A stretch of 43,803 bases of DNA from Gemmatimonadota bacterium (GTDB lineage Bacteria; Gemmatimonadota; Gemmatimonadetes; Gemmatimonadales; GWC2-71-9), in NCBI GenBank assembly GCA_003223395.1, contig QHUZ01000028.1:1-43803 (forward strand), read 5' to 3'. Positions 37,078-39,554 of this stretch are shown one piece after another. The notes below the pieces were generated by a model, which was not told the DNA's origin, made no database searches, and was given only the letters and a program-made list of their open reading frames with translations. Every line of letters begins with the position of its first letter. Positions within the stretch are counted from its first letter, which is position 1. The position numbers were made by a program, and so were the translations under genes.

Positions 37078-37667
37078 AAGTCGGCATCCTGGGCACCGGA
37101 CAAGTCGGGCAGTCGCTCGCCGCAGGTTTCACGAAGTACGGCCACGAGGTGAAGCTCGGTCACCGCGATCCGAAACAGTCGTTCGCCGATGCCGCGAAAT
37201 TCGGTGAGGTCGTCCTTCTCTGCACGGCGTGGGCCGGAACCGAGAGTGCGATCAAGCTCACCGACCCGAAGAATCTCGCGGGCAAAGTCGTAATCGACGT
37301 CACGAACCCTCTCAAGCCTACGGCGACGGACCCATTCGCGCTCGCCCTCGGGTTTGAGGACTCGGGCGGCGAACAGGTGCAGCGGTGGCTACCACAGTCA
37401 CGCGTGGTGAAAGCGTTCAACATCGTGGGTAACTCATTGATGGTCGATCCGAAACTCCCCGGCGGACCACCGGATATGTTCATCGCCGGCAACGACGCAG
37501 CCGCGAAGCAAACCGTCACGCGGATCTGCACGCAATTCGGCTGGCTGGTCGTGGACATAGGCGGGATCGAACGTTCACGAGTCCTTGAACCCCTGGCGGT
37601 GTTGTGGTGCGTCGTTGGTTCCAAGTTCGACTGGCGGGAACAGGCGTGGAAGCTGTTGCACAGGTAG
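37074..37667 (+). CDS. NADPH-dependent F420-reductase-like NAD(P)-binding protein
   Basis: A 197-residue protein with a Rossmann dinucleotide-binding motif at the very start (VGILGTGQVGQSLAAGF; GxGxxG). The following VKLGHRDPKQS ends the second strand with a basic residue, favouring NADP(H). GKVVIDVTNPLKP and VKAFNIVGNSLM are typical of F420-dependent NADP reductase-like proteins. Many relatives lack F420 and act as general NADP oxidoreductases. Translation starts at GTG 37074, overlapping the DinB stop (GTGA). It lies 31 bases upstream of the selenocysteine-type peroxiredoxin and may be co-transcribed with it. Confidence 0.84.
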   Translation: MKVGILGTGQVGQSLAAGFTKYGHEVKLGHRDPKQSFADAAKFGEVVLLCTAWAGTESAIKLTDPKNLAGKVVIDVTNPLKPTATDPFALALGFEDSGGEQVQRWLPQSRVVKAFNIVGNSLMVDPKLPGGPPDMFIAGNDAAAKQTVTRICTQFGWLVVDIGGIERSRVLEPLAVLWCVVGSKFDWREQAWKLLHR

Positions 37668-37698
37668 ATTGAGGGCGGGGTCAAACAAGGATTCCGTC

Positions 37699-38268
37699 GT
37701 GGTCATGACACTCGTTCTCGCGGCATTGATGCAGCAGCCGGCGGCACCCCCCGCACCGCCTCCAGGACCCGCAGCACTCGAAGTCGGCGCCGTCGCCCCC
37801 GACTTCGCGATCCCCGGCGCCACGCGCTACGGGACGCTCAAGAACCCAGTGCGGCTCAGCGACTACAAGGGCAAGACGGTCGTACTCGCGTTCTTCTTCA
37901 AAGCGCGCACCAAGGGCTGAACGATTCAAATGAATGCGTACCGTGATAAGTACGCACAGGTCTTCAACGATGGGCGCAAGGTCGTCCTGATCGCCATCAG
38001 CGCTGACGTGGACACGGCACTCGCGTCATGGGCGCGGGATGCGGATTATCCGGTTCTGTTTGGGAGCGATACCGGCTCAGCGGTGGGAAAAGCGTATGGC
38101 GCCTACAATGCCCAGTACAAGCTCGACAACCGCAATCTGTTCGTCGTAGCACCAGACGGAAAAATCGCCTACCGGGCGACGCCGTTCCGGGAGATCGATC
38201 CGACCTCCTACACGGACCTCGGAGCCGCGATCAGCAAACTGATGCCTGCTGACTCAACGGCGCGGTAG
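37699..38268 (+). CDS. Peroxiredoxin (AhpC/TSA type) with in-frame TGA at the peroxidatic position: probable selenoprotein
   Basis: Read through the TGA at 37918-37920, this is a 189-residue peroxiredoxin. Before the TGA: VGAVAPDFAIPG, then GKTVVLAFFFKARTKG; after it: TIQMNAYRDKYAQVF, then VVLIAISADVD and the C-terminal NLFVVAPDGKIAYRATPF. The peroxidatic Cys of this family sits exactly at the TGA (T-x-x-C becomes T-K-G-U). Both halves are in one frame and intact, and no other Cys exists in the protein, so it would be a 1-Sec enzyme (Sec about 74). A 7-bp hairpin with a G/U loop starts 14 bases after the TGA, as expected for a bacterial SECIS. GTG 37699 has AAGGA seven bases upstream; ATG 37705 is an alternative start. 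A nonsense mutation of a Cys codon is the main alternative. Confidence 0.8.
37935..37956 (+). promoter_or_regulatory. Candidate bacterial SECIS hairpin of the peroxiredoxin
   Basis: TGCGTAC (37935-37941) and GTACGCA (37950-37956) form a perfect seven-base-pair stem with the loop CGTGATAA. It begins 14 bases after the TGA, placing the apical loop about 21-23 bases downstream. Bacterial SECIS elements are known to lie inside the coding region just after the UGA, with a G, often followed by U, among the first loop bases; here G is second and is followed by U. The residues encoded (AYRDKYA) are partly palindromic by themselves, so some pairing could arise by chance. Confidence 0.65.
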
Positions 38269-38269
38269 G

Positions 38270-38318
38270 AGGCGGTAAAGGGGCGGTAGGTTACCGCCTC
38301 TTACCGCCCCCTACCGCC
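38270..38318. repeat. Inverted GGCGGTA repeat / bidirectional terminator
   Basis: AGGCGGTAAAGGGGCGGTAG (38270-38289) faces three copies of TACCGCC spaced ten bases apart (38292-38318). The arms can form a stem of about 20 bp directly after the peroxiredoxin stop. On the minus strand the right arm also encodes the last residues (AVGGGKRR) and TAA stop of the TlpA gene. It can end both transcripts. The unit is ten bases long, unlike the seven-base repeats elsewhere. Confidence 0.65.
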
Positions 38319-38812
38319 GTTTCAAGAGCAGCTTCGATCTCCTGGTCTGCTCCGACGCCAGTGTAAACGACGCGACCCTTGGCATCAAGCACCACGACGT
38401 ATGAAGTAGCGGGAGCGTCGAACGCTCTGACCGCCGCGCCATTACCATCCCACAAGAACGTGAACGGCATCGGATGCTTCTCGAGATGCCGGCGCACGGA
38501 ATTCTTGCTCTGATTCACCGCGACCGCGACGACAAGAAACTCCGCGCGATCCCCAAACTTCTTCTGCGCCGCCTCCATCCGCGGCAGCAGCTCGGCGCAG
38601 ATGGGGCACCACGTCGCCCAGAACTCCACGATGACCGGCTTCTTCCCGATCCATTGCGACAGCGCGACCGAATCGCCGGTGAGACTCTCGAGGGTAACCG
38701 GAGGAGGTGTTTCACCAACCGGGATGCCAATCACATCCTGCGCCCGCAGCACCGCGGGGGCAAGAAAAAGTAGTCCAGCGCACAGCGTACTGCGCACAGC
38801 GCACGCCGTCAC
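38291..38812 (-). CDS. TlpA-like exported thioredoxin-fold protein
   Basis: A 173-residue protein with a signal peptide (VRSTLCAGLLFLAPAVLRAQ) and a thioredoxin fold. The active site is EFWATWCPICAEL (WCPIC, a CxxC pair), and the cis-Pro region is APATSYVVVLDAKG. TlpA/ResA-like proteins reduce disulfides in the periplasm, for example in cytochrome c maturation. The GTG at 38812 overlaps the CcdA stop (GTGA), so the two are coupled and CcdA likely supplies its electrons. A second GTG at 38815 is an alternative start. The C-terminal tail is encoded by the inverted repeat at 38270. It is convergent with the peroxiredoxin gene. Confidence 0.88.
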   Translation of the reverse strand: MTACAVRSTLCAGLLFLAPAVLRAQDVIGIPVGETPPPVTLESLTGDSVALSQWIGKKPVIVEFWATWCPICAELLPRMEAAQKKFGDRAEFLVVAVAVNQSKNSVRRHLEKHPMPFTFLWDGNGAAVRAFDAPATSYVVVLDAKGRVVYTGVGADQEIEAALETAVGGGKRR

Positions 38813-39504
38813 CACACTTGCCCCGCTTTGACGAAGTAGTACTCAGCCATGAGCAGTAGAACCACGCCCGCCGCCCTTTTGATCCACACCATCCACGCGC
38901 CGGCACGCGGGAGTGCGGCGAGCGCACCCGAGAAGAATCCCACGACGACGAGCAGGACCGACATGCCCAGCGAGAACACGAACAGGTAGAGGAAGCCGAG
39001 CACCGCGCTGCGCGTCGTTGCCACCCAGGTGAGCACGGCGGCGAACGCCGGGGCCCCGCACGGCGCGGCGACGAGTCCCGACGTCGCACCCAGCAAGAAG
39101 ACGGCTGGATAGGAGCCGCCGCCCAGGCTCCCCGCCCAGGCGGAAAGCCGCGCGGGCAGCCGCACCGGAATCACCTCGAGCATCGCGAGGGCGAAGACGA
39201 GCAGCAGGTTTCCGATGACGAGCCGAGCCCAGAAGCTTGCGCCGATTGTGCCGAACAACGACCCGGTCATCCCGGCGATCATGCCGAGCAGCGCGTAGAA
39301 GAGCGCGAGCCCGGCAACGTAGGTGAGCGTCAGGCCAAGCGTACGGCGGCGCGTTCGTCCGGGCGCGTTGACGCCGGCGAGCGTCCCGGCGGTGATCGGG
39401 ATCATCGGGTAAATGCACGGATTGAGGCTCGTCACCACGCCGGCAGCGAACAGCAACCCCACGGCGAGGAGCGGTTGATTTTGCAACGCGTCGGAGATTC
39501 CCAC
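38809..39504 (-). CDS. CcdA/DsbD-type transmembrane electron-transfer protein
   Basis: A 231-residue integral membrane protein with six or seven hydrophobic segments. It has the two conserved membrane cysteines of the DsbD beta domain/CcdA: NPCIYPMIPITAG near the first helix and VAAPCGAPAFAAVL in the fourth. These proteins pass electrons from cytoplasmic thioredoxin across the membrane to periplasmic partners such as TlpA, whose gene follows with a GTGA overlap. The GTG at 39504 (MGISDALQ) is chosen; an in-frame TTG at 39531 would add nine unconvincing residues. TATTAT lies six bases upstream of this GTG, as in a leaderless promoter. Confidence 0.88.
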   Translation of the reverse strand: MGISDALQNQPLLAVGLLFAAGVVTSLNPCIYPMIPITAGTLAGVNAPGRTRRRTLGLTLTYVAGLALFYALLGMIAGMTGSLFGTIGASFWARLVIGNLLLVFALAMLEVIPVRLPARLSAWAGSLGGGSYPAVFLLGATSGLVAAPCGAPAFAAVLTWVATTRSAVLGFLYLFVFSLGMSVLLVVVGFFSGALAALPRAGAWMVWIKRAAGVVLLLMAEYYFVKAGQVW

Positions 39505-39516
39505 GGCGGGATAATA
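39505..39516 (-). promoter_or_regulatory. Putative -10 box immediately before the ccdA-like start
   Basis: On the minus strand TATTAT (39516-39511) is followed by six bases (CCCGCC) and the GTG start. No Shine-Dalgarno fits in between. The spacing implies a transcript beginning at the start codon. No -35 element is obvious. Confidence 0.45.
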
Positions 39517-39554
39517 ACGCCGTATCTTCAAACTGCATCCTCAACGGAGTTCGT

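Follow-up and report, generated by a model that had tools for sequence, protein, structure and literature searches.

Positions 37699–38268 almost certainly encode a 1-Sec peroxiredoxin whose in-frame UGA is read as selenocysteine. They lie in a stretch of 43,803 nucleotides, here called the window, which is positions 1–43,803 of contig QHUZ01000028.1 (assembly GCA_003223395.1) from a Gemmatimonadota bacterium (Gemmatimonadales; GWC2-71-9). This reading draws together a TGA codon that is conserved among relatives, a SECIS hairpin behind it, the presence of the selenocysteine machinery in the genome, the peroxiredoxin fold of the product, and the tracking of Sec forms with selA. From conservation we infer that selenocysteine is inserted at UGA 37918–37920, and the protein would presumably act as a peroxidase.

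The reading frame and its active site

37687–37691, + strand: AAGGA, likely ribosome-binding site 7 nt 5' of the GTG, from reading of the sequence
37699–38268, + strand: putative Sec-peroxiredoxin gene, GTG start and TAG stop, 189 residues with TGA taken as Sec
37699–37767, + strand: short hydrophobic N-terminus (MVMTLVLAALMQQ) and Pro-rich linker, recognized by eye
37897–37899, + strand: Phe67, where PxxxTxxC has Pro, from the alignment of Sec and Cys forms
37909–37911, + strand: Thr71 of T-x-x-U; 144 of 145 Sec forms have T or S here
37918–37920, + strand: TGA, predicted selenocysteine 74 (U74) at the peroxidatic position, from the translation and the codons of relatives
38131–38133, + strand: Arg145, candidate active-site Arg of peroxiredoxins, from the invariant column R122 of alignment A2

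When translated with TGA as U, the gene has this single TGA and not one Cys among its 189 residues. The product matched PF00578 (AhpC/TSA) at 89.9 bits against a cut-off of 26, and as the match extends over residues 29–158 the two halves on either side of the TGA form one domain. The first-pass annotation had claimed as much: two intact halves of a single peroxiredoxin in the same frame, parted by a TGA where T-x-x-C has its catalytic Cys, in a protein with no other Cys and bound to be split by gene callers. The T-x-x-U part is as it described, and under the standard code the gene does fall into two ORFs (37585–37920 and 37930–38268). Its phrase "functional 1-Sec peroxiredoxin" stands as to the 1-Sec type; "functional" is an argument from conservation. 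It missed the Phe codon at 37897–37899 in place of the Pro of P-x-x-x-T-x-x-C; also beyond it are the SECIS and its synonymous-site covariation, the correlation of the Sec/Cys switch with selA, the spread through the phylum, the replacement of Pro by an aromatic residue and the TlpA-CcdA genes nearby. The GTG at 37699 fits the boundary seen in relatives of the same genus, where a nearby stop precludes a good earlier start.

An AlphaFold model of the protein (mean pLDDT 93.6) has a thioredoxin-like peroxiredoxin fold. Relatives keep both the Thr of T-x-x-U and, 71 residues on, an Arg (column R122, Arg145) that we take to be the catalytic Arg by analogy with known peroxiredoxin families. The active-site motif reads F-F-F-K-A-R-T-K-G-U-T-I-Q-M. 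Set against P-x-x-x-T/S-x-x-C/U, it keeps T-x-x-U and has Phe for the Pro, and as the Pro is missing we class the protein as a "variant" peroxiredoxin. An aromatic residue, Phe or Tyr, fills this position seven residues ahead of the nucleophile in 159 of 174 Sec forms and in 0 of 35 Cys forms; 13 of the 174 Sec forms and 34 of the 35 Cys forms have Pro there, with related copies counted separately. The Pro-bearing Sec forms come in part from genomes in which a Sec and a Cys copy lie side by side, and they also occur in a second family of the order. A strict rule by which Pro turns aromatic whenever Cys turns to Sec was therefore cut down, since such forms exist and the agreement amounts to about three of three independent family pairs (p 0.25); in the sequences aligned, the aromatic residue occurs only with Sec, and Sec does not require the aromatic residue.

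Peroxiredoxins that carry Sec in a TxxU motif form a known selenoprotein family (PMC13188914, PMC9312934, PMC1794560), and the enzymes described so far are characterised by PxxxTxxU (PMC13188914); the first-pass annotation had stated that selenoprotein peroxiredoxins exist. The Gemmatimonadota protein is for this reason not a new kind; as judged from its sequences, it is a lineage far below the PrxU model that has a single Sec and lacks a resolving Cys. Like the window protein, PrxU (PF00578/COG1225; e.g., that of Eubacterium acidaminophilum) has Sec at the peroxidatic position, in T-x-x-U; however, the window protein scored 58.3 bits against the PrxU equivalog model, NCBIfam NF040737, far short of its cut-off of 270, and the Gemmatimonadota lineage mostly has Phe or Tyr for the Pro of PxxxTxxU, usually carries a signal peptide and comes from one phylum. 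None of the other NCBIfam models tested reached its cut-off for the window protein either. The best fold match in the PDB was AhpE, the 1-Cys peroxiredoxin of Mycobacterium tuberculosis (TM 0.77–0.81, 29–32% identity), which is a Cys enzyme, whereas the window protein has Sec and the aromatic residue. The top sequence-profile matches were of the Bcp type (2ywn, 3hjp, 2cx3), but the window protein is free of Cys throughout, the PrxQ resolving position included; it thus lacks the resolving Cys of the PrxQ/Bcp 2-Cys type, and most TGA relatives are also without other Cys. The bacterial Prx-like UxxC/UGC selenoproteins of the thiol:disulfide oxidoreductase type share the same Pfam domain (PMC13188914), but the window motif is TxxU-TIQ and is Cys-free after the Sec. 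We found no account of Gemmatimonadota selenoproteins in the open-access literature; subscription journals or public annotation may hold some.

Neighbouring genes, export and a candidate reductant

38259–38318, no strand: long, very stable GC-rich inverted repeat lying between the convergent genes (fold −50.9 kcal/mol, z −7.4), which probably terminates transcription in both directions
38291–38815, − strand: TlpA/ResA-like thioredoxin with a WCPIC motif and a signal-peptide-like N-terminus (PF08534, 78.7 bits)
38809–39531, − strand: CcdA/DsbD-type membrane electron carrier (PF02683, 146.5 bits)

The inverted repeat is built of GGCGGTA/TACCGCC units and overlaps the 3' end of the TlpA gene; weak Rfam matches at 38250–38320 were set aside as chance matches to it. 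Of 105 distinct Sec loci, 56 retain the convergent TlpA and 51 have CcdA next to it, so that the pair was not found beside about half of them. In most other genera the Sec-peroxiredoxins have clear signal peptides, as judged by eye, and the protein is presumably exported; in the genus of the window the hydrophobic N-terminus is short with no charged start, which makes export of the window protein less sure than that of its relatives.

Lacking a resolving Cys, the enzyme must be reduced by an external thiol, for which the convergent TlpA-CcdA pair is a reasonable candidate; we put the chance that TlpA provides the electron route at slightly below even. In the mechanism we propose, Sec74, flanked by Thr71 and Arg145, would attack the peroxide and be oxidised to the selenenic acid, which an external thiol would then reduce; the donor, as the conserved convergent pair suggests, may be an exported thioredoxin-like protein that is recharged across the membrane.

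The same neighbours bear on the one alternative of some weight, namely that the protein is a selenoprotein but no peroxidase, its aromatic-for-Pro form working together with TlpA-CcdA in thiol-disulfide exchange or in some other redox role. That most Sec forms are without the Pro of PxxxTxxC, and that the neighbouring genes encode thiol-disulfide exchange proteins, would fit such a role; however, the active-site Thr and Arg of peroxiredoxins are retained, the closest fold is that of the 1-Cys peroxiredoxin AhpE, and there is no CxxC or UxxC motif, and we regard this alternative as unlikely.

A probable SECIS hairpin and the selenocysteine machinery

37935–37956, + strand: putative bacterial SECIS hairpin, stem TGCGTAC/GTACGCA (37935–37941 and 37950–37956), 8-nt loop CGTGATAA

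The hairpin starts 14 nt 3' of the TGA. Bacterial SECIS elements have been modelled as an apical loop of 3–9 nt on a stem of 4–16 bp, 16–37 nt from UGA to loop, G within the first two loop positions, often followed by G or U, and a minimum free energy of −7.5 kcal/mol or lower (PMC13188914). Here the loop is 8 nt and the stem 7 bp, the loop (CGUGAUAA) has its G as the model expects, the UGA lies 21 nt from the loop (37921–37941), and the energy is −8.6 kcal/mol (z −3.6), which none of 200 shuffles equalled. A longer 71-nt fold was not significant (z −0.66), the local hairpin alone being so, and Rfam gave zero SECIS matches.

The core of the hairpin hardly varies at synonymous sites. Across 105 distinct loci its codons GCG TAC CGT GAT CAG TAC barely change, whereas those on either side vary freely; each of these six core codons has synonyms, and the neighbouring codons make use of theirs. 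In the window loop a single base departs from the consensus, with A where C is usual (CGTGATAA vs. CGTGATCA); this gives Lys for Gln, and it may affect how efficiently Sec is inserted here. RNAalifold returned an almost zero covariation term, a consequence of the nearly invariant stem, and for this reason we counted the outermost pair directly. This pair joins two third codon positions, and it is formed in 83 of 93 sequences (CG 31, UA 29, GC 23), compared with a mean of 40 and a maximum of 55 of 93 in 5000 shuffles, which carry no correction for relatedness; in part of the set it is an unpaired A-A. The codon combinations involved are CAT-GCA, CAC-GCG, AAT-GCA, AAC-GCG and GAG-GCC, and that the synonymous codons of His, and likewise those of Asn, alternate in this way would be hard to explain other than by pairing.

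Conceivably the hairpin is kept for some other reason, such as the peptide AYRDQYA alone or a DNA- or protein-binding site, with the UGA serving mainly as a regulated stop that yields a short product at low selenium. Selenoprotein mRNAs generally terminate partly at UGA, and an ATG at +4 codons is conserved, both of which count for such a stop. However, the half downstream of the UGA is strongly conserved as protein and holds the conserved Arg, and the Cys forms encode the same residues, in a near-identical peptide, by mixed codons that do not keep the conserved hairpin sequence; we consider this explanation very improbable. On the preferred reading of the hairpin as a SECIS element, SelB carrying Sec-tRNA(Sec) would bind it at 37935–37956 and read UGA 37918–37920 as selenocysteine.

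A genome devoid of sel genes would, according to the first-pass annotation, have refuted its proposal. Profile searches of the source genome (3.41 Mb, 97.6% complete) instead recovered all components above curated cut-offs: selA on contig C59 (516 bits), selB on C79 (353 bits for the frame, its C-terminal piece included), selD on C109 (392 bits; L018:1501–2433, genome G000) and tRNA-Sec on C50 (anticodon TCA, 77.6 bits, with which ARAGORN concurs). The Sec-decoding trait is thus complete in this genome. The selD gene has an in-frame TGA of its own at the usual Sec site (GAGUACK, in the context SHGAGUACKLGP; Sec18); the sequence behind this TGA is unlike the peroxiredoxin SECIS. A Prx-like reading frame terminates just upstream of this selD.

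Conservation of the TGA codon and its tracking with selA

TGA-type orthologs were present in 64 of the 102 genomes of the GTDB family. When the codon at the Sec position was read base by base at 84 family loci it was TGA at 66, TGC or TGT at 16 and neither at 2, the last being more distant relatives; the TGA relatives reach down to ~49% identity with frames intact on either side. In the named GTDB collection, which overlaps the family genomes in part (many are identical), TGA occupies the codon in all but one of the best 80 relatives (79 of 80), L139 having TGC, and nearly all matches are to Gemmatimonadota. Sister genomes hold the TGA rather than a decayed or Cys copy; a Cys codon in sister strains with a decayed copy in this strain was the outcome that the first-pass annotation had named as fatal to its proposal. 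Across the phylum the exact pattern of TGA plus hairpin was found in 226 of 395 sampled genomes, and the reversed control gave 0.

Within the family, selA was detected in 57 of 64 TGA genomes and in 0 of 8 with a close Cys homolog (Fisher p 5e-7); six of the seven TGA genomes without detected selA are ≤90% complete, and one is 92%. Among 60 further genomes of the phylum, mostly complete, selA was present in 29 of 30 with TGA and SECIS vs. 8 of 30 without (p 1.5e-8), neither p value being corrected for shared ancestry.

A lone TGA in a single genome could equally come from a pseudogene or a sequencing error, i.e., a Cys codon mutated in one strain or assembly; the conservation of the TGA (66 of 84 relatives, with both flanking frames intact) refutes this, the SECIS is invariant and selA correlates with the TGA, leaving such an origin a negligible chance. 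The TGA, in frame inside an intact gene, could also be a general sense codon (e.g., Trp) in this organism, but Pfam-supported genes of the window stop at TGA (Fpg, M28 peptidase, methyltransferase, DinB, CcdA and M20 peptidase), which refutes a code change, and homologs have Cys rather than Trp at the position, making this idea likewise exceedingly improbable.

A tree with 105 Sec sequences and 17 Cys sequences calls for at least three Sec/Cys changes. Two Cys forms (L075 and L139) fall inside the Sec clade and the others outside; if the root is assumed to lie outside the Sec clade, this would amount to a single gain of Sec and two returns to Cys. It is possible, if somewhat short of probable, that Gemmatimonadota have a lineage-wide exported 1-Sec peroxidase, in which an aromatic residue may stand in for the otherwise near-universal active-site Pro only where the nucleophile is Sec, supplied from the cytoplasm by a TlpA-CcdA relay, and interconverting between Sec and Cys with the gain and loss of the Sec machinery.

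Gemmatimonadota are common in soil, and annotation pipelines would split this gene in hundreds of their genomes, so that the phylum's use of selenium is easily missed. The natural Sec/Cys pairs, adjacent copies included, offer a set for asking what Sec gives a peroxiredoxin, and also bear on why the active-site Pro goes only in Sec forms, while the SECIS is a clean case of a coding-region RNA element read via synonymous covariation. Cys and Sec paralogs adjoin within one genome at five loci (L188, L211, L213, L217 and L224), and at another (L192; G308 C18) two Sec-peroxiredoxin genes stand in tandem with a SECIS in each. A further Sec-peroxiredoxin match (L060; G096 C25) was returned with two in-frame TGA codons and an open stretch of 651 residues. 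Gemmatimonadota-type copies were also found on two contigs named outside the phylum, "Acidobacteria" (L105) and "Terrabacteria ANGP1" (L111); both are probably misbinned, the latter because its protein is identical to that of a Gemmatimonadota locus.
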